From IMG/VR virus record IMGVR_UViG_3300048672_000060, positions 1 to 37,969 of that record: a stretch of 37,969 bases of DNA. One strand, given 5' to 3'. Within the stretch, counting starts at the first letter, position 1. The number at the start of each line of letters is the position of its first letter. The notes under the pieces were generated by a model. The model was not told where the DNA came from and did no database searches. It saw nothing but the letters and a program-made list of their open reading frames with translations. This document shows positions 14,271 through 32,043 of this stretch, one piece after another. Source of the stretch: a virus. Both the position numbers and the translations under genes were made by a program.

Positions 14271-15038
14271 CTAGCTAACCACACAATCTAGCACATACTC
14301 ACACCGCCACCGATACGAGCGCCCAGCTTTAGCGGGTATCGCCGCTTGATACTCGCCGACTAGCTCAATGCCGTGAACTGCTGTACTGTGCCGCCAATCG
14401 GACAGGCTGCCATCAGGTAAAACGTCTTGATGCTGGATGACAATGTAAGTTGGCTCAGGCGCTTTTGTTTTTAGCCAGATATTCACAACGCTGTTTGATG
14501 TTGCAAGTGGTTGCCATGTGTCGATTGATGCAATCAGCTCAGGGTTAAAGTGGTCAACAATATCTTTCATTGTTACATCAGGAAACATCACTTTATTGTA
14601 TTTAGCTAAATTAATTACTTTAGTGGCTTCAGCAGCACTGATTAATCCGACAGACACAGCAGCATTGAACGTCAATTGCACTGTAGGGTCATTCATGTTG
14701 ATTGTATGACCACCAGCGCTAAATGGGGCTTTATTAGCAAGCTTAGATTCACTGATAGCTTCATGGAAACCAGCCACAATCTTCATCTTTGTCTGAGCTA
14801 AGGCTTTCTGTTCTGCTGTACTGTTCTCCTCAGCTAATACCGCTTTAGCAGCAGCCTTCATATCTTCCATCTTATCGCGCCACAACCCATCAGCAATATA
14901 AGACTCTAAAAGCTTCAGCTTACCTTCTTCAATACGCCCAACAGCTTCTTCTGTTTTAGACTTGATAAGATCTAACCGTTCTTTGTTAGATAAATCTTGG
15001 TATTCTGGTTTATTTAATTCCGTGATGTATTGTGTCAT
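14271..15038 (-). CDS. Hypothetical 255-aa virion-associated protein
   Basis: Residues 1-105 are charged helices (LDLIKSKTEEAVGRIEEGKL, then KAAAKAVLAEENSTAEQKAL). The middle has alternating hydrophobic helices, and the last ~70 residues are a beta-rich fibronectin-like module ending RSYRWRCEYVLDC. The helical-stalk plus beta-tip layout suits a fibre or fibre-attachment protein. Its start lies inside the end of the hydrolase gene (28-bp overlap). Not assigned to a named family. Confidence 0.55.
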   Translation of the reverse strand: MTQYITELNKPEYQDLSNKERLDLIKSKTEEAVGRIEEGKLKLLESYIADGLWRDKMEDMKAAAKAVLAEENSTAEQKALAQTKMKIVAGFHEAISESKLANKAPFSAGGHTINMNDPTVQLTFNAAVSVGLISAAEATKVINLAKYNKVMFPDVTMKDIVDHFNPELIASIDTWQPLATSNSVVNIWLKTKAPEPTYIVIQHQDVLPDGSLSDWRHSTAVHGIELVGEYQAAIPAKAGRSYRWRCEYVLDCVVS

Positions 15039-15456
15039 TACTATTTCTCCAAATATCTTCTGGCGTTATTCTGCCAACATAATCTTTTCTAAACGTTCCA
15101 GCGATATGAGCAACAGCTTCACTACACAACCATTTACCTTTTTGATTCCAACCTGTGCGGAGGAAAATACCAAAGATAGCAGCAAAATCGTATTTATCAC
15201 CAATAATGTTAGAAGCCCTATCTAAAGCTTCAGCAACACTATCCTTGACAGGAATGGTAGCAAAAGCGTGATCATTGTAACGCTCAATAAATTCATTCAG
15301 TGGTGTTATAACAACACCTTTTGTGGCTGTAGACTCAATAACATTATCTCCAACAACTACACCACAATGTGACCACCTAGACCAAGTAAATACGCGGATC
15401 AACCAACTGAAAGGGAGGTGATTCTTACCAAAAATTATTGTAATTGTTGGACACAT
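15010..15456 (-). CDS. Permuted papain-like (YiiX/NlpC-P60 type) amidase
   Basis: 148 aa. The key residues appear in permuted order: His first (WSHCGVVVGDNVIES, H30, with E41 following), Cys later (KGKWLCSEAVA, C111). This is the layout of the YiiX/YaeF group of NlpC/P60-related thiol hydrolases, which cleave amide bonds in peptidoglycan peptides or lipids. In phages such genes occur beside lysis or tail genes. Here it follows holin, Rz1, Rz and lysozyme, so a role as an auxiliary cell-wall or membrane-targeted hydrolase is reasonable. Substrate unknown. Confidence 0.7.
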   Translation of the reverse strand: MCPTITIIFGKNHLPFSWLIRVFTWSRWSHCGVVVGDNVIESTATKGVVITPLNEFIERYNDHAFATIPVKDSVAEALDRASNIIGDKYDFAAIFGIFLRTGWNQKGKWLCSEAVAHIAGTFRKDYVGRITPEDIWRNSNDTIHHGIK

Positions 15457-15458
15457 CT

Positions 15459-15656
15459 TTATTTCTCATCCAATGATTTAGTGGTTACTGTACGTAAAAT
15501 TACGTTGACAACAGCAACTAACATGAATATAATTCCGTAATGTGTTCCTAAATACTCTTGCAACACTTGCATATTCATCTCGATAATACCAAGGACAGCT
15601 ACAAGGATGTTGAACAACATTGTTTTACTTTTGTGTAGCTTTGTTAGCCATTTCAT
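15459..15656 (-). CDS. Small two-TM membrane protein, holin candidate
   Basis: 65 aa with two hydrophobic segments (about residues 13-28, MLFNILVAVLGIIE, and 41-55, GIIFMLVAVVNVILR), a Lys-rich N-terminus and a charged C-terminus. The HKSKTMLFN...LRTVTTKSL layout is shared by a family of small phage proteins found in lysis cassettes. With a GH24 lysozyme lacking a signal sequence and an Rz/Rz1 pair next to it, it is the best holin candidate. The other candidate is the 4-TM protein at 16659. Its start overlaps the end of Rz1 by 32 bp. Confidence 0.65.
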   Translation of the reverse strand: MKWLTKLHKSKTMLFNILVAVLGIIEMNMQVLQEYLGTHYGIIFMLVAVVNVILRTVTTKSLDEK

Positions 15657-15918
15657 TTTCGTTTCTCTGTTTTATTGTGAGATTGCAAATAGCTAAATCA
15701 TTACGTAGACGTTTCTCTGACACAATGTAATCTAATACAGTGTTGCCATCTCGTTTACTCACTGGACATTCTTGCATTAGTTGTGGAGGAGTGTTGACAG
15801 GAACTTCTACGATACGATCTACGTAAACTGTTTTAGTTGTTTGACATGCCACTAATAGCGGCAGGGACAGGCATAGCAAGACAAGATTTCTCAAAACCTT
15901 CTGGAAGCGAATGAACAT
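15625..15918 (-). CDS. Rz1-like outer-membrane lipoprotein (o-spanin)
   Basis: 97 aa from ATG 15918 (an in-frame TTG lies at 15927). It has a basic start, a hydrophobic core and the lipobox LVAC at residues 22-25, so the mature lipoprotein starts at C25. Pro/Val-rich sequence follows (VDRIVEVPVNTPPQL). The first ~95 bp are read out of frame inside the Rz gene, the nested arrangement known for lambda-type spanin pairs. Together with Rz it would disrupt or fuse the outer membrane at the end of lysis. This requires a Gram-negative host. Confidence 0.85.
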   Translation of the reverse strand: MFIRFQKVLRNLVLLCLSLPLLVACQTTKTVYVDRIVEVPVNTPPQLMQECPVSKRDGNTVLDYIVSEKRLRNDLAICNLTIKQRNENEMANKATQK

Positions 15919-16210
15919 ATTTAACAATCTCTTTTTCAGAAGAATGTTGTTCTTCTTTTATTTTATCAATAGAATTCTGTAATGCAAGAAGTTTTTTATT
16001 CTGTTCTTCATTTCTGTATTGAAGATCGGTATACTTCTTTGCATTCTCATTGGAAATCACAACAGCAGCTTCTGCTTGCCGTTTATAAAGCTCTACAGAA
16101 GCCTCTAGAGCTTCTTTCTGTGATAGCAGTACCTTCATATACCCAAAGACAAATAAGACGATTGTAGCTGCTCCTACGAGCTTTACGATAGGGCTAAACA
16201 ACATATTCAT
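15833..16210 (-). CDS. Rz-like inner-membrane spanin (i-spanin)
   Basis: 125 aa: one N-terminal transmembrane helix (about residues 8-27, VKLVGAATIVLFVFGYM), then a periplasmic coiled coil rich in Gln/Glu/Lys (about 30-100) and a short Pro-containing tail. This is the type II topology of i-spanins. Its last 86 bp overlap the o-spanin gene in another frame. The start overlaps the lysozyme stop by four bases. Confidence 0.85.
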   Translation of the reverse strand: MNMLFSPIVKLVGAATIVLFVFGYMKVLLSQKEALEASVELYKRQAEAAVVISNENAKKYTDLQYRNEEQNKKLLALQNSIDKIKEEQHSSEKEIVKYVHSLPEGFEKSCLAMPVPAAISGMSNN

Positions 16211-16686
16211 TGGAATACTCCGGCAGAAATATAATACATATCCAAGCCACCATTCTTCATTGTCTTAGAATGACGTTTAGCACGTTTAGGTGTCTGTTTA
16301 GCCCACAAGCTATCAAGCATCTCTGTAGAAGCTAAATCAAAATCTTTACGTTCTAAAGCAAGCCACATCTTTTTGAAGTTGGATACTCCAGCTAAGCCTA
16401 GCTGATAGGACATAGAAATCAATACGGCTTGCTGCGCCATGTTGCAATTGTTCCAAGCTTTATTGTATTTTACGCTAAGCTCTCGAATGTGTTGATCGAT
16501 ACGTTTACGTAGAAACTGTAATGCGTCTTTTTCTGTTACTGTTTGATTAGTTAGAGGGTCGTTCTTAATATTAGATAGCTTCTGTCCGTAGCCAATAGTT
16601 CTATACTGTTCGGTACAGTAATATTCATGCTGACGAAAACCTTCTTCTAGTTTTAAAATCATCTCTGCGTATTTGTTTTCTTGCAT
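16207..16686 (-). CDS. Endolysin, T4-type lysozyme (GH24 muramidase)
   Basis: 159 aa, typical for GH24. It cleaves the MurNAc-GlcNAc bond of peptidoglycan. The active-site region is LEEGFRQHEYYCTEQYRTIG. Aligned to T4 lysozyme, E15 = Glu11, C24 = Asp20 and T30 = Thr26, giving the E-8aa-C-5aa-T variant of the catalytic triad. A Cys at the Asp20 position is found in some natural GH24 enzymes, and engineered D20C T4 lysozyme stays active, so this enzyme is probably functional. There is no signal peptide or SAR helix, so it needs a holin. Confidence 0.9.
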   Translation of the reverse strand: MQENKYAEMILKLEEGFRQHEYYCTEQYRTIGYGQKLSNIKNDPLTNQTVTEKDALQFLRKRIDQHIRELSVKYNKAWNNCNMAQQAVLISMSYQLGLAGVSNFKKMWLALERKDFDLASTEMLDSLWAKQTPKRAKRHSKTMKNGGLDMYYISAGVFQ

Positions 16687-17075
16687 ATATCTCTCCTAAT
16701 TTTCCATTCAGCATCTAAACACAAACCTACAACAATCAACTGTAAGAGTAAGAACTGGATACCTTCCCTGAACGGATAAAAAACTGTTTGGTAGTAACTA
16801 AAGGCTTCATATATATTTAATAGAAAACTCACTACACAAGGTATGCCGAGCAAGAAATAACGGAGCCTATCTTTAAGTAAAAACACAAAAGAATATTGGA
16901 TGGTATCAAACAGGGCTTCTTTTATGTAGAAATATTCTTGGGGTACGTAAGGGTTAATTAGTACGTTAGCTACTAACGCTAAAAACAATAGCCTACTGAC
17001 CAGTACAATGTCTTTATCCTTGATCAAGAAAGACAAGATCAATAAACTACACGGTGTGATCAGTAGGCTAATCAT
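16659..17075 (-). CDS. Four-TM membrane protein of the lysis region
   Basis: 138 aa with four hydrophobic segments (about residues 3-18, 23-40, 72-90 and 103-120) and a basic cytoplasmic-type tail (KIRRDICKKTNTQR). No family is recognised. It is coupled by TAATG to a proline-rich peptide gene upstream and overlaps the lysozyme start by 28 bp, so it is expressed with the lysis genes. It may be a second holin, an antiholin or an accessory membrane protein; the sequence does not decide. Confidence 0.6.
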   Translation of the reverse strand: MISLLITPCSLLILSFLIKDKDIVLVSRLLFLALVANVLINPYVPQEYFYIKEALFDTIQYSFVFLLKDRLRYFLLGIPCVVSFLLNIYEAFSYYQTVFYPFREGIQFLLLQLIVVGLCLDAEWKIRRDICKKTNTQR

Positions 17076-17158
17076 TACTTAGTTTCCTCTACAGGAGGTA
17101 CTGGAGCGCTTGCTGGAGGCTTGATTGGCTTTTCTGGTTGCGGTAATTCAGATGGCAT
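17075..17158 (-). CDS. 27-aa proline-rich peptide
   Basis: A short frame with ATG at 17158, Shine-Dalgarno AGGAAG about ten bases upstream, and stop TAA at 17077-17075 fused to the ATG of the 4-TM gene. Nine of 27 residues are Pro (for example QPEKPIKPPASAPVPP), with Glu at both ends. It may be a translational coupler or a small scaffold peptide. Gene status rests on ribosome-binding site, coupling and composition only. Confidence 0.5.
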   Translation of the reverse strand: MPSELPQPEKPIKPPASAPVPPVEETK

Positions 17159-17159
17159 A

Positions 17160-17573
17160 TTATTTACTTCCTATGTTTGTTAATAGTTTTGTTAGTCGTC
17201 CGATAGAAGCAAGAGGCGCTACACGATTGAGTAGTTCTTGCGTATCAAACGGTTTTAGTACGAAGTCTAATGCTCCGCACATAAACGCCTTACAACGATT
17301 ATCGTCAGTACCTTCTGCTGTAATAAATACAGTAGGTGTGTGTCGAGTGATTTCTTCTTCACGTAGTTCTTCTGACAATTCATACCCAGTGTAACCATTA
17401 TCGAGATGGATGTCAAGGACAATTACATCAGGATTAAACTCTTTAGCTTTAGATATAGCTTCATGGTGCCCATAGACGGGTAGTGTTTCATACCCGCCTT
17501 TATCGAACACATCTGTCAAATACGACAACATGAAAGCATCATCTTCAACGATCATTATGCGAGGATTTGTCAT
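17160..17573 (-). CDS. Stand-alone response-regulator receiver (CheY-like)
   Basis: 137 aa from ATG 17573, after GGAG; the open frame extends seven codons further without a better site. All receiver landmarks are present: acidic pocket D11-D12 (IVEDDAF), phospho-acceptor D54 (VIVLDIHLD), switch threonine T85 (VFITAEG) and K107 (LKPFD). There is no output domain: the sequence ends ~15 residues after the last receiver helix. It overlaps the membrane coiled-coil gene by 29 bp and precedes the proline-rich peptide by one base, so it is co-transcribed with the lysis cassette. A phosphorylatable receiver in a phage lysis operon is unusual. Its kinase or target is not visible in the window. Confidence 0.88.
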   Translation of the reverse strand: MTNPRIMIVEDDAFMLSYLTDVFDKGGYETLPVYGHHEAISKAKEFNPDVIVLDIHLDNGYTGYELSEELREEEITRHTPTVFITAEGTDDNRCKAFMCGALDFVLKPFDTQELLNRVAPLASIGRLTKLLTNIGSK

Positions 17574-17853
17574 TTGACATACTCCACTTTGCATTAAGTA
17601 CCGCTAAATCCCTAGTGAGCTGGTTTAATGTTGCATTCATTTCTCGTGTCATCACTAACACTTCTTTTTGATCTTCACGTACTGGATCTACAGCTTTAGT
17701 AATAGCCTTTTCCATATCTTCAAAGGTTGGTGTCCTAGCTTGTTTAGACACGATAGCTTCAAGAACTTTATCATTCCGTTGTTTATCGTACCAGTACCAA
17801 GCTATTAATCCAGTCCAGCCCCACTTCAGTAAGGCGAATAATTCTATATTCAC
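17545..17853 (-). CDS. Membrane-anchored coiled-coil protein
   Basis: 102 aa starting with GTG 17853, which overlaps the stop of the peptidase fragment (GTGA). There is one N-terminal hydrophobic helix with Trp-rich edges (about residues 4-21, ELFALLKWGWTGLIAWYWYD), then a charged linker and a coiled coil at about 60-92 (VLVMTREMNATLNQLTRDLA). The layout resembles single-TM holin-like or i-spanin-like proteins, but Rz is found elsewhere. Overlap with the receiver gene makes it a possible membrane partner of that protein, which is an inference from context. Confidence 0.65.
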   Translation of the reverse strand: MNIELFALLKWGWTGLIAWYWYDKQRNDKVLEAIVSKQARTPTFEDMEKAITKAVDPVREDQKEVLVMTREMNATLNQLTRDLAVLNAKWSMSNDKSSHNDR

Positions 17854-18029
17854 AAGATTAATTCCTTATGTTTGAGCAACTCTGCCTGCCGTTCTTTCGT
17901 GCGTAAACCATCAATCGCAGTAAAATCCACCTCGGAAAGCTCCAAGGCGCGTTTAACTACGCGCACTAGGTCTGGATGGACTCCTTGAAGGTTGTCTGTG
18001 CTTCGCTTTCCTAGGATGAATTTTGGCAT
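17850..18029 (-). CDS. Truncated M15 peptidase (endolysin-type) N-terminal fragment
   Basis: 59 aa, ATG 18029 with CGGAG five bases upstream. The sequence (LGKRSTDNLQGVHPDLVRVV, then VDFTAIDGLRTKERQAELL) matches the start of phage VanY/M15 L-alanyl-D-glutamate peptidases. In full enzymes SRHxxGxAxD and later zinc ligands follow; here the frame ends after LLKHKELIL. No zinc site remains, and neither neighbouring frame holds the missing half, so this looks like a deletion remnant rather than a simple frameshift. It still has a good ribosome-binding site and is coupled to the next gene, so the peptide may be made. It could be catalytically dead or kept only for coupling. Confidence 0.7.
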   Translation of the reverse strand: MPKFILGKRSTDNLQGVHPDLVRVVKRALELSEVDFTAIDGLRTKERQAELLKHKELIL

Positions 18030-28372: not shown

Positions 28373-29007
28373 GGATTACCTCCCGCATCTGTTGGAGATT
28401 TTCCAGCAAAACTATCATAAAAATTATTTAAAGCTTCAGGTATGCTTGCACCAGAATCAACAGCTCTTACCAAAAACGCTTTAATTGTCTTTCCGCCGTT
28501 AGTTGTCGAAGAAGCTGCGTCTTTTTTATTAGCTACAACATTGCTCGTTTTTACTAAATTAATACTCTCAGTGGATGCTGTTCTAATTTGAACAACTTGC
28601 ATATCAAAATACAAGCTGTTACTAGATTCAGCACTTACTGGAAGATTCAACGACTCAACTACACAATCATAGTACGTCTCATACTTACTGACCAGAGTAA
28701 ATGTAAGACGCTCATCACGTAACCTACGTAAGAACTTATATGCTTGTTGAATACGATCTAATCCACGAGACAGTGTGTCAGCTTGATAATCATTCAATCC
28801 GTACTGGCCAAAGATACCAGACACTGTGAAGCGATTGTTCTTCAGTTGAATATGATCACTAAACGATACGCCAGTTTCTACAGGATGCTCAGTTACTGTG
28901 TTGGAGAAGTCGTGAGAAATACTCACGGTACAATCCGCAAAATATTTCTCACCCGCAATCTCACTCACGCCAGCTTTAAATTTATTAGCGACGATGAATG
29001 TAATCAT
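28369..29007 (-). CDS. Dit-like distal tail / baseplate protein
   Basis: 212 aa. The N-terminal domain reads VSISHDFSNTVTEHPVETGV then SFSDHIQLKNNRFTVSG, the usual Dit-like pattern in contractile phages (orthogonal beta barrel around the tube end). QQAYKFLRRLRDERLTFTLV and the YYDCVVESLNLPVSAESSNS strand follow. The C-terminal ~60 residues are a low-complexity and helical tail. It directly follows the tape measure gene, the conserved place. Confidence 0.8.
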   Translation of the reverse strand: MITFIVANKFKAGVSEIAGEKYFADCTVSISHDFSNTVTEHPVETGVSFSDHIQLKNNRFTVSGIFGQYGLNDYQADTLSRGLDRIQQAYKFLRRLRDERLTFTLVSKYETYYDCVVESLNLPVSAESSNSLYFDMQVVQIRTASTESINLVKTSNVVANKKDAASSTTNGGKTIKAFLVRAVDSGASIPEALNNFYDSFAGKSPTDAGGNP

Positions 29008-29925
29008 TATTGTGCTGTCTCCATCTGAGTAACTGCATTTTTCGGTGCCGCGGTAGCAGTGATTGCTTTACCAAATTGACTGTCATCAACTTTAATATCA
29101 ATAAACCATCCCAGAGGGGAGTATTGAGAATAACCTTTATATAGGTTTTCGAATGCTGCTGACGGACTACTCAGTGCACCGCTACCTTTGGTTAAACTAA
29201 TGGCTCTACCTGTCATCGTGTCAGCCTTATCTCCGTATGTAGCATATAACGCCAAGTCTTCAATGACTGCATACGCAGCAATGATCGGAGCAAATCGGGC
29301 AGCCATAGCTAACAATGCTGAGTTAACAGCCCAAACGGCTTTGGATACAAAGCTGAATCTTGTAGCCATCAGTGCAAGTACACCACCAGCACCAACTAAA
29401 GACCAAATACCGCCACTACCATCTAAGATACCTAAACGTTCTAAGTTATCACCTAAAGAGTCAAATAACGCCACCATTCCACGGAAAGGTATTAACGCCA
29501 CTTTTATCCCTGCTGTAATTGTTGTAACAGCGCCACGGAAAGCCGCACCGAATGCTTCGGCTAATGGGGCAAGTTCTTGGAGTAGGTCAGCTAAAGAGCC
29601 GAACATATATCCTAAACCTTCGTCCATACCCCCTCGGAAGATTGTATCTTTAGCTTCTGTTAATGTATTGAAGAATCGACCCATCTGAGCACGAGTCTTA
29701 TTCATTACAGCATCTAACGCACCGCCCTCACGTGCCATCTTCTTCATTTCTTCAGCAAACTTAGGCAAAACATCTTTAGATTTTAATTTACCAGCCTCTA
29801 CAGCTTTAAAGAAATCTTGCATGTTTGTATAACCAGCAGCTCGCATCATAGCGTCTACACTGCCGCCCAAGGCCTCACCCAACTGGCCAGTAAGTTCTTC
29901 CTTATAGAGCTGACCTTTTGATGCC
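29007..29925 (-). CDS. Tape measure protein, exon 2 (C-terminal part)
   Basis: Second exon of the gene whose first exon ends at 30812. Joining T(30812) to G(29925) restores the frame as LQQ-M-ASKGQLYKEELTGQ, matching the conserved 'QMxSKGxVxxEELxGQLGE' stretch of phage tape measures. The exon encodes ~306 residues, with hydrophobic segments (GGIWSLVGAGGVLALMATRF, AMAARFAPIIAAYAV) that may act in the host membrane during DNA entry. Unspliced, the frame upstream of 29925 meets a stop (TAG at 29943-29941) in the intron. The spliced protein is 716 aa. Confidence 0.88.
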
Positions 29926-30082
29926 CACTTATGTTCAAACTAATTCGCTATATTAGTTCCGCATCATTACATGCAGCTATATGTTTCCATATAGATCAGA
30001 CTATATCTTCACCCTAATACTAGGGGTTCCACATTTCCACTCGCTTGAGTGTACGCCTTTCGGCTAGTCGTTGAACACAATA

Positions 30083-30655
30083 TCAATATAAGCAAGTTAT
30101 GTGTGACCAAGTACAACGGTATCTTATTTTAGATACTTGTTTCAATGTCAAACCTAATTGCTTAGCTACCTCACTACACGACGGCGGAATAGAATCTTTA
30201 TAGTCTACAAAGTATATTTTACAGACTGCGTGGACTTGTTCTTCCGTCATTTTACACATACCATGTTTCGTCCCTTTCAGTGTAGGGATTAACTTATCAC
30301 CAAACGCCGCTTTAATGTTTTCGGAGTTTGTTCCCCATTTAAGGTTGGTATAGTGGTTATTAATCTTGTTGTTATCTATGTGCATCACTACTACAGTATC
30401 AGATTTATAACTTTCTGTTTCATATTTCAGATGTTCTGGTCGTTCAACAAATAACTCTGCCACGACCTTATGCACTTTCCTAGAAAACTTTTTGTTATTC
30501 TTTTGATACTGAAAATAATAATATCCGCACTTATTTAACCTAGTGTACCACCGTTGACCTGTTCTACTATTAATCAAGTAACCGTCACGATGTACCAGAA
30601 TCTTTGGATATTCTGGGTAAGGTAGTATTTCGATATTTTGCTGCTGATTGTCCAT
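30083..30655 (-). CDS. Intron-encoded HNH homing endonuclease
   Basis: 190 aa. The HNH core has VHKVVAELFVERPEH (H62), then VVVMHIDNNKINNHYTNLKW (H92 with the N...N helix), and GTNSENIKAA, the usual phage homing HNH layout. An N-terminal NUMOD4-like strand region (YPKILVHRDGYLINSRTGQR) precedes it. A C-terminal helix-turn-helix (CSEVAKQLGLTLKQVSKIRY, 150-169) would recognise DNA. It would cut intronless tape-measure alleles and spread the intron. It lies in the intron between the P4-P6 core and the R element. ATG 30655 follows AAAGGAG by six bases, inside a regulatory hairpin. Confidence 0.9.
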   Translation of the reverse strand: MDNQQQNIEILPYPEYPKILVHRDGYLINSRTGQRWYTRLNKCGYYYFQYQKNNKKFSRKVHKVVAELFVERPEHLKYETESYKSDTVVVMHIDNNKINNHYTNLKWGTNSENIKAAFGDKLIPTLKGTKHGMCKMTEEQVHAVCKIYFVDYKDSIPPSCSEVAKQLGLTLKQVSKIRYRCTWSHITCLY

Positions 30656-30661
30656 TTCACT

Positions 30662-30681
30662 CTCCTTTATATTAAAAGGAG
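30662..30681 (-). promoter_or_regulatory. Hairpin that sequesters the HNH ribosome-binding site
   Basis: On the minus strand CTCCTTT (30681-30675), loop TAATAT, AAAGGAG (30668-30662): a perfect 7-bp stem in which the right arm is the Shine-Dalgarno of the intron HNH gene. In long tape-measure transcripts the site would be masked. Confidence 0.75.
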
Positions 30682-30682
30682 G

Positions 30683-30710
30683 ATCATACCATAGCTTTTC
30701 AAACTGTCAA
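30683..30710 (-). promoter_or_regulatory. Promoter inside the intron for the HNH gene
   Basis: On the minus strand, TTGACA (30710-30705), a 16-bp spacer and TATGAT (30688-30683; five of six consensus bases). The expected start point, 6-8 nt on (~30677-30675), falls at the end of the left hairpin arm. RNA from this promoter would lack most of that arm and leave the ribosome-binding site open. Confidence 0.7.
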
Positions 30711-30811
30711 GCTTGTCGTTACCGACTACTTTGTAGTGTATGGTCTTTAGGAGTTTCCAGCAATTAATGGAATTGTTTTCTACACATTACTGTGTAGGCA
30801 GACAACATTCT

Positions 30812-32043
30812 ATCTGCTGTAGCGCACGTAATGCGCGTTGGTAATCTTCTTTACTTGTACCCAGCACCTGAGCATATTCAGAAACACCAGTAAACAAACT
30901 ACGTTGTTGGTCTTTGGTCATTGTAGTTTTAGTGGCAATACTAAATTTAGTGAACTCTTTAGTAGCTAACTGTAAATCTACACCTAAACGCATTGCTTCA
31001 TCACGAATAAACTTCATGTGGTCGGCAACACCTGCTTCATCTTTAGCAAATACTTTAGCTGAAGCTCGTAGCCCTTCCATTTCGAACCCCGTCTGAGCAA
31101 TGTTTTGGATGGCGCTAAATGCAGTATATGCAGCAGTTAATTGCACTAGTTCACTACGTAAAGAAGCAAATGTAATAGCATTAGCCCGTAATGCACGTTG
31201 CTGTGTTAACAGAGCATTGGTAGCCATGTTCAAGTCTTTCTTGAAACCTTCCAAGTCCGTGATGTTAGCTCCAGTATACATCTTACGAGATTGAGCAGCT
31301 TGTTCACGTATCTTAGTTAATCCAGCTTCGATTTGCTCAGATTTTAAACCAAACCTTTCTGCGTAGTTTCTGAATTGACCTTCCTTGCGTTGTACGTGGA
31401 AGTCTGCACGAATACCGAAAGCCTCTTGTGCTGAAGATGCTCTACTGATCGCAGCAGCCTCTTTTGCTTTACGTTTAGCTCTTGCAGCATTTTGTTTAGC
31501 GCGTTGATTTAATAAACGCTCTCTACGTCTATCATATTCTGATGCAGCTTTCTCACTTGCGGCTTCTTCTTCACGCATTAACTGAGCATAATATGTTTTG
31601 TTTGCTGCTGATGTAATAGCTAGAGTAGGAAACAAATGAGACAAGCGTTCAGTTAGGTTGGCTTTACCGTTAGCCGTTCTGATAGCTTTCTGAGATTGTT
31701 TAGCCATCTCATTCTGAATCTTCTCTTGAGCTTTTAATTCCGTTTGCCAGAACTTAACATATCCTTTAGGATCACCGCCAACACTACCGAAAGTCATTAG
31801 CTTATGTTTCTTAGCTACTTCAGCTCGTACTCTCGCAACTTTCTTTTCAGCATTAACTGTAGCATTAGCTACTTTGTTTATATTGTTTATTGTGGCTTGG
31901 ACTTTGATTGCTTTGTCCAAACCACCAAGTTGTTTCTTAACCGAAGTTAATTTGTTTTGAAATAAGGCTAGATTGTCCCATGAACGTTTGTCGATATTAA
32001 ATCGGATCTTACCTACGACCGACCCAGTAATGTTATCTGCCAT
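30812..32043 (-). CDS. Tape measure protein, exon 1 (N-terminal part)
   Basis: Encodes residues 1-410 of the spliced 716-aa tape measure, which sets tail length and is ejected with DNA. It is mostly long charged helices (SEYDRRRERL-type, AKQNAARAKRKAKEAAAISR). It ends with DYQRALRALQQ, where typical tape measures continue QMASKG. Read without splicing, the frame adds IECCLPTQ and stops in the intron P2 loop (TAA), giving a 418-aa truncated product. ATG 32043 has AGGAG upstream, overlapping the stop of the chaperone frameshift extension. Confidence 0.88.

Follow-up and report, generated by a model that had tools for sequence, protein, structure and literature searches.

The question raised by this locus is why a marine phage carries a receiver-only response regulator in the middle of its lysis operon. 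The gene is located in an IMG/VR virus record of 37,969 bases, which was analyzed as a whole and is called the window below. The preliminary description of this DNA had reported a complete CheY-like receiver without an output domain and had recommended an HMM search and a structure prediction, and both bore the proposal out. Pfam Response_reg (PF00072) matched the protein with an E value of 1.7e-23 (83.4 bits, cut-off 30.2) over residues 13-125 of its 144-aa form; no second PF00072 match was present in the record. The structure model (pLDDT 92.3, pTM 0.87) shows a CheY-type fold with five beta-alpha units in the classical order and a long last helix (residues 111-135). At E <=0.001 the model had 595 matches in the PDB with receiver domains on top, and the top matches, RpaA, VicR, RR468, PhoB, ArcA, and PleD, had TM-scores (by query) of about 0.8-0.9. 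The protein consists of the receiver only, with neither an output domain nor a DNA-binding domain, and it is a new member of the known receiver proteins.

The 137-aa form of the receiver starts at the ATG at 17573, which is preceded by a GGAG motif about 8 nt upstream; the ORF list had placed the start one ATG further upstream, at 17594 (144 aa). All five residues that had been named (D11, D12, D54, T85, K107) are present in the 137-aa form. The assignments of D54, T85, and K107 could be retained, whereas D11-D12 had to be given up as the acidic pair, because the acidic residues of the other receivers align with E10-D11, with D12 adjacent. E-D is the acidic pair also in PhoB-type receivers. 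Sequence and alignment together give E10-D11, D54, T85, and K107 as the phosphorylation residues of the window receiver.

The operon that contains the gene begins with the tail fibre genes and continues as listed here; the small gene in front of the receiver gene is called the partner, and L119 and L124 are two related metagenomic contigs.

17850..18029 (-), N-terminal remnant of an endolysin, 59 aa (phrog_465, E 1.4e-21, residues 1-53)
17545..17853 (-), partner, 102 aa, GTG start (sequence; low-confidence model; homologues in L119/L124, A5, V22, and Barbavirus gp125)
17160..17573 (-), receiver-only response regulator, 137 aa (PF00072, residues, structure model, relatives in L119/L124)
17075..17158 (-), Pro-rich ORF of 27 codons between the receiver gene and the membrane gene (ATG at 17158; similar in L119 and L124)
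16659..17075 (-), multi-helix membrane protein of 138 aa, holin candidate (homologue of Barbavirus gp127)
16207..16686 (-), GH24 endolysin, judged soluble from its sequence (PF00959 Phage_lysozyme, E 2.8e-11)
15833..16210 (-), Rz-like inner-membrane spanin (phrog_89, E 3.6e-5)
15625..15927 (-), Rz1-like outer-membrane lipoprotein spanin, overlapping Rz (phrog_456, E 1.7e-13)
15459..15656 (-), membrane protein of 65 aa, holin candidate (homologue of Barbavirus gp124, tblastn E 1e-9)
15010..15456 (-), permuted papain-like amidase, C92 (PF05708, E 4.2e-7; 35% identity to the V22 homologue)

The genes of this operon touch or overlap, and the receiver gene shares 29 nt with the partner gene, which supports the earlier claim that the receiver is co-expressed with the lysis genes. 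The GH24 endolysin contains an E-8aa-C-5aa-T spacing, which we take to be that of the catalytic motif. The homology of the endolysin remnant to phrog_465 stops at residue 53, directly beside the ribosome-binding site of the partner gene, and in L119 and L124 the region before the pair showed no such remnant. It looks like a recombination scar at the site where the pair entered the cassette of the window.

Promoter-like sites were not in excess in the window (18 found versus a mean of 23.1 in shuffles). One perfect sigma-70 consensus (12/12, spacer 17) is present at 15505-15533 on the plus strand, antisense to the lysis operon, and was absent from 20 mononucleotide shuffles of one strand. An antisense promoter as a means of lysis control was dropped because L119 and L124 do not share the site in their cassettes. 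Elsewhere in the window, the tape measure gene (29007-32043, minus strand) is split into ORFs of 291 and 418 aa that flank an ORF for an HNH endonuclease (30083-30655), possibly an intron or a homing insertion.

The partner had been described as a membrane coiled-coil neighbor. The coiled coil was found, but the membrane part is weak in the window: the N-terminal segment, which is followed directly by basic residues and then by the coiled coil, reaches a Kyte-Doolittle maximum of only 1.04 over 19 residues, and the model consists of two helices predicted with low confidence (pLDDT 70.9, pTM 0.33). Judged by Kyte-Doolittle values alone, the segment is clear (>=1.6) in 7 of 11 phage sequences and weak (1.0-1.3) in the partners of the window, V22, A5, and L020. 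In the N-anchored partners, basic residues come next after the membrane segment, and by the positive-inside rule, basic residues at this place put the following part of a protein into the cytoplasm. The coiled coil of these partners would thus face the cytoplasm. The partners of PB15 and XX1924 have the reversed layout, with the coil first and the membrane segment at the C-terminal end. In the PHROGs and Pfam scans, no profile family match named a partner a holin, and Pfam did not match the window partner to DUF2730 (PF10805). Using blastp, homologues of the window partner were found in A5, V22, and Barbavirus (gp125). The partners of the window, L119, A5, V22, and Barbavirus form one detectably homologous set and those of R9Y1 and H4/4 another; between these two sets, the V19 partner, and the PB15 partner there was no match at E 0.01.

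The structural genes of the window are myoviral, and their nearest relatives in the phage collection are those of the Rheinheimera Barbavirus (53-59%). Barbavirus keeps homologues of the partner (gp125), of the 138-aa protein (gp127; tblastn E 2e-6 against Barba33A), and of the 65-aa protein (gp124). In place of the Pro-rich ORF it has a 75-base CDS, gp126. The receiver is absent from the Barba33A record. Because Barbavirus has the partner homologue without a receiver, the receiver gene seems to have been added to a partner gene that was already there.

A nucleotide search with the first 25 kb of the window gave no match in the phage collection, and viral contigs scanned with a single protein, either the window receiver or the 138-aa membrane protein, gave no relatives. 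The relatives were found by a scan of viral contigs with an alignment of the baseplate protein, which yielded eight loci. L119 (93 kb contig) and L124 (99.6 kb contig) carry the complete cassette with its genes ordered as in the window, with identities to the window of 64-66% for the partner, 58-59% for the receiver, 44-46% for the 138-aa protein, 61-62% for GH24, 61-66% for Rz, 74-77% for Rz1, 62% for the 65-aa protein, and 70-72% for C92. The Barbavirus-like loci L122 and L123 (53%) had no partner or receiver match at a tblastn E value of 0.1, and L002, L120, L121, and L125 had no cassette matches. In L124, the C92 amidase region (L124:19740-21117) is broken by an ORF of 216 aa with C92-like pieces on both sides.

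All phosphorylation residues are kept in the receivers of L119 and L124. The dN/dS ratio between these two was 0.086; pairs that involve the window were saturated, and with the L119/L124 pair included, five comparisons were measurable and ranged from 0.06 to 0.16 (also R9Y1/L016, 0.082; R9Y1/R9Y2, 0.101; H4/4 versus R8W, 0.157; A5/L020, 0.063). The phage receivers are under purifying selection in these five comparisons. Absence from the related phages together with signs of decay, which the preliminary description had named as counter-evidence, was therefore not found: L119 and L124 keep a selected receiver. The same data bear on the view that the receiver is a passenger, that is, a host gene captured by chance that has no function for the phage. 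Single-domain receivers are indeed common in hosts, and Barbavirus manages without one. However, purifying selection, retention in seven groups of phages, and the presence of one copy in each of 12 of the 13 records searched (Barba33A being the record without) make a passenger very improbable.

The distribution of the pair was analyzed by tblastn with the receivers of the window, V22, R9Y1, and A5; the five lists of receiver matches comprised the best 40 of 54, 60 of 159, 60 of 182, 30 of 189, and 24 of 24 records. In these records, the pair was found in at least six further groups besides window/L119/L124, all of them Alteromonas phages or their close kin. The six groups have the following arrangements.

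V22, myovirus: C92, partner, receiver, membrane protein with embedded lipobox ORF (Rz1 type), 2TM-like protein
A5, schitovirus: pair plus embedded lipobox ORF (Rz1 type) and Rz-like spanin (phrog_4297, 2.9e-8)
R9Y1 (siphovirus) and relatives: partner, receiver, GH108 lysozyme
Foturvirus R8W and H4/4: annotated class II holin, partner, receiver
V19: partner-receiver pair, neighboring genes on the other strand
PB15 and XX1924: pair, then M15 peptidase or DUF5675; PB15 also has a 3TM holin by Pfam

In the available text of the A5 report, both A5 and V19 are called schitoviruses (PMC10579305). Directly upstream of the phage receivers lies a partner gene of 93-125 aa, which overlaps the receiver gene or is at most 2 nt away. 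The phosphorylation residues are kept in the receivers of the window, L119, L124, V22, A5, R9Y1, H4/4, PB15, and XX1924, and the identity between the window receiver and V22 gp30 is 30% over 137 residues. The view of the receiver as an oddity without a standard place can be refined: its place is a recurrent one, behind a small coiled-coil gene in seven groups. The pair is associated with lysis genes in most of the groups examined; genes for endolysins, holins, or spanins are neighbors of the receiver gene in the window, L119, L124, V22, A5, R9Y1, Foturvirus, and PB15, and the lysis context is less clear in V19 and XX1924. A homologue of the C92 gene adjoins the pair in V22. Counting against a role in lysis control, other holin candidates are present in the same cassettes.

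Tail genes lie directly upstream of the pair in most groups, and this arrangement allows another explanation, namely that the pair is an envelope or entry module (superinfection exclusion, anti-defence, or host recognition) that adjoins the lysis genes because these follow the fibre genes. The available text of the A5 report likewise groups the CheY-like gene, classed as an AMG, with fibre and chaperone genes in a shared host recognition module with neighbors of unknown function (PMC10579305). However, by annotation the adjoining fibre genes differ among the groups, whereas the lysis genes and the pair persist, and the gp12 and gp31 of unknown function in that report look like spanins (the phrog_4297 match of A5 and the embedded lipobox ORFs). 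We therefore consider an entry module improbable.

DUF5675, perhaps a lysis-associated family, was observed near the pair in V22, V19, and XX1924 (L004:12074-12484, L012:5527-5928, L022:2438-2836). Several records were set aside, and most of the nominal phage records matched by receivers look bacterial. P24 is named as a sharer of the module in the available text of the A5 report, the table of which gives no CheY-like gene for P24 (PMC10579305); it had no match in the phage collection and was not counted. Listeria phage LM, Bacteriophage sp. MT83, and Acinetobacter phage MD-2021a look bacterial by their names and annotation, the Pseudomonas Y11 record also looks bacterial and encodes a protein of 542 aa, more than a receiver, and OQ658365 and Komp_PAO1_1 are unlike the pair. 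Records named as phages under MT83xxxx, OR84xxxx-OR85xxxx, and CAKLQ* carry ordinary-looking response regulators and are probably bacterial DNA.

As a control, bacterial genomes were scanned, and 80 of 152 loci were kept. One of these, L025 (PBFM01000045.1, 42,718 bases), is an R9Y1-like phage contig filed under Candidatus Neomarinimicrobiota and equals in length the IMG/VR phage contig of L014; its receiver is R9Y1-like with 99% identity, and it is probably a mis-binned phage genome. The control set comprised the 79 other loci, 38 of which had a receiver-only ORF, while two yielded no ORF. When one segment at a Kyte-Doolittle value of 1.6 was required, a small ORF preceded none of the 38 bacterial receivers versus 7 of the 11 phage receivers. 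With a looser criterion that was applied equally to both sets (upstream ORF of 80-165 aa, end at -30 to +60 nt, Kyte-Doolittle maximum >=1.0), such an ORF preceded all 11 phage receivers and 4 of the 38 bacterial ones (Fisher 4.7e-8). Collapsed to the seven groups, the enrichment had a p-value of 7.3e-6; both p-values are descriptive, because the criterion was set post hoc and ancestry is partly shared.

A quick tree of 89 rows over 122 columns was built from 11 phage rows together with 64 of the 79 control loci and 14 loci from other genomes; on it, the phage label needs four changes. A tree constrained to keep 10 phage rows together (V19 left out) was better by 31 log units, with a p-AU of 0.845. 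These results agree with a single origin of the receiver and later exchange between phages that share hosts, but they do not prove it; the tree does not separate one capture from several. V22 and A5 share a transferred block; because of this block and because a single origin is not rejected, the groups are not independent inventions.

If the receiver is phosphorylated, the phosphoryl group has to come from somewhere. None of the 13 phage records (the window record being a fragment) had a HATPase_c match above the cut-off, the one weak match being in A5 (18.2 bits versus 26.4), and none had an Hpt match at E 0.1; the control genomes were positive in 14 of 14 cases for HATPase_c and in 10 of 14 for Hpt. 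As no phage kinase was recognized, the phosphoryl group, if any, would come from the host or from a small donor. The preliminary interpretation is partly supported: the complete receiver and the implied co-expression with the lysis genes stand, and the host as a possible source of phosphate agrees with the kinase search, but the receiver is no isolated oddity.

The main rival is host rewiring: as an auxiliary signalling gene, the receiver would draw phosphate from host histidine kinases or act on them as a decoy, and it would owe its place in the late operon to dosage only. PhoB is the best NCBIfam match for the receivers of the window, V22, R9Y1, H4/4, and PB15, and in the available texts the R8W gene is described as 'PhoB', a low-phosphate AMG (PMC8228385), and the V22 gene as a class II AMG for signalling (PMC7289586). 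Phages are also known to target host two-component systems, and PIT4 binds several kinases (PMC10714779, available text). However, the PhoB match of the window (TIGR02154, 79.1 bits, far below the cut-off of 296.2) covers the receiver part only, and the DNA-binding domain is absent. A sink would need no fixed partner, yet the partner is present in 11 of 11 cases, and the late position would allow it little time to act. In addition, the V19 copy is unable to accept phosphate at the usual Asp. The active-site residues do not decide, but the constant partner counts against a sink, which we regard as unlikely.

V19 is a special case. Its receiver has no Asp at the phosphoacceptor place in the alignment, the conserved Lys is absent, and its PF00072 score (29.9 bits) is just below the cut-off of 30.2. 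This copy may use the receiver fold without phosphate and speaks against a role that is always phosphate-dependent. An adaptor independent of phosphorylation has to be considered, in which the fold only binds the coiled coil, as an antiholin-like stabilizer, and the active-site residues are merely inherited. It would agree with the retention of the pair in V19 and with the constant pairing across the phage receivers. In the other groups, however, the active-site residues survive at identities of 22-30%, which suggests phosphorylation or at least Mg2+ binding, and such an adaptor seems unlikely.

We favor, tentatively and at slightly less than even odds, a cytoplasmic receiver that is phosphorylated by the host, acts on the membrane coiled coil, and sets the time of lysis. 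The partner would be a small inner-membrane protein with one short segment and its coiled coil in the cytoplasm, and the CheY-like receiver would bind this coil. Host histidine kinases or a small phosphodonor such as acetyl phosphate would set the state of the receiver, and phosphorylation would alter its alpha4-beta5-alpha5 face and thereby its grip on the coiled coil. As a result, the formation of the hole that frees the endolysin might come earlier or later, and lysis time would be coupled to the physiological state of the host. The recurrence in Alteromonas phages suggests that these phages may tie the bursting of the host to a host signal. In a more far-reaching version, lytic phages of Alteromonas and its kin would carry a mobile cassette of two genes that connects a CheY-type switch to the holin step; a phosphorelay would then gate the lysis clock, with host kinases or acetyl phosphate timing the burst. 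If true, it would be, as far as searches show, the first lysis timer under two-component phosphorylation at the protein level. This version is possible, but we hold it to be doubtful.

The time of lysis sets the burst size; a holin-internal clock is the usual explanation, and superinfection is the one given for T4 and N4. If a phage receiver were coupled to a membrane protein from the lysis cassette, a lytic phage could read the state of its host at lysis. Because the pair recurs in seven groups, the 'AMG' annotations that had been scattered become a single module that can be tested and whose partner has a name; phages isolated from cultured Alteromonas are available for such tests.

In the texts available on phage response regulators or CheY-like genes and lysis, none was found that links a receiver to lysis, and as far as the literature searches show, the pair has not been described as a lysis-associated unit. 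V22 gp30, A5 gp11, and the 'PhoB' of R8W are, like the window gene, receiver-only genes behind a small coiled-coil gene; the available texts treat them as single genes, with a 'hypothetical' partner and no link to lysis (PMC7289586, PMC10579305, PMC8228385). Yersinia RoeA is a PhoB-like regulator encoded next to a lysis cassette and, according to the available text, is without a phosphorylation domain (PMC10101115). The PhoP-like gene of Stenotrophomonas phage Bhz63 is also a response regulator in a phage, but it encodes a full-length regulator of 240 codons, is followed by a gene annotated as PRK11100, and lies beside recombination genes. DUF2730 (PF10805) proteins resemble the partner in that a coiled coil is combined with a membrane segment at the N terminus; the match of Barbavirus gp125 to this family is weak (20.2 bits, below the cut-off of 24.9), and gp125 has no adjoining receiver. 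In T4, RIII is a soluble cytoplasmic antiholin that acts on the one-segment holin T, similar to the arrangement proposed for the pair. To our knowledge, RIII does not belong to the receivers, and no control of it by phosphorylation is known. The 'Receiver domain' of N4 was rejected as a homologue, because it is a nickname for a short stretch and not a CheY fold (PMC12642591, available text), and at E 0.01 none of the partner proteins resembled the N4 proteins in sequence. According to the same text, rapid-lysis mutations of N4 cluster in a helical region of the holin gp63 that lies in the cytoplasm (PMC12642591). Like the proposed partner, the N4 pinholin gp63, with its lysis regulator gp62, is a small membrane protein with a cytoplasmic helical input for lysis control (PMC12642591), and by this analogy N4 lysis would be the nearest mechanistic counterpart of the partner-receiver pair.
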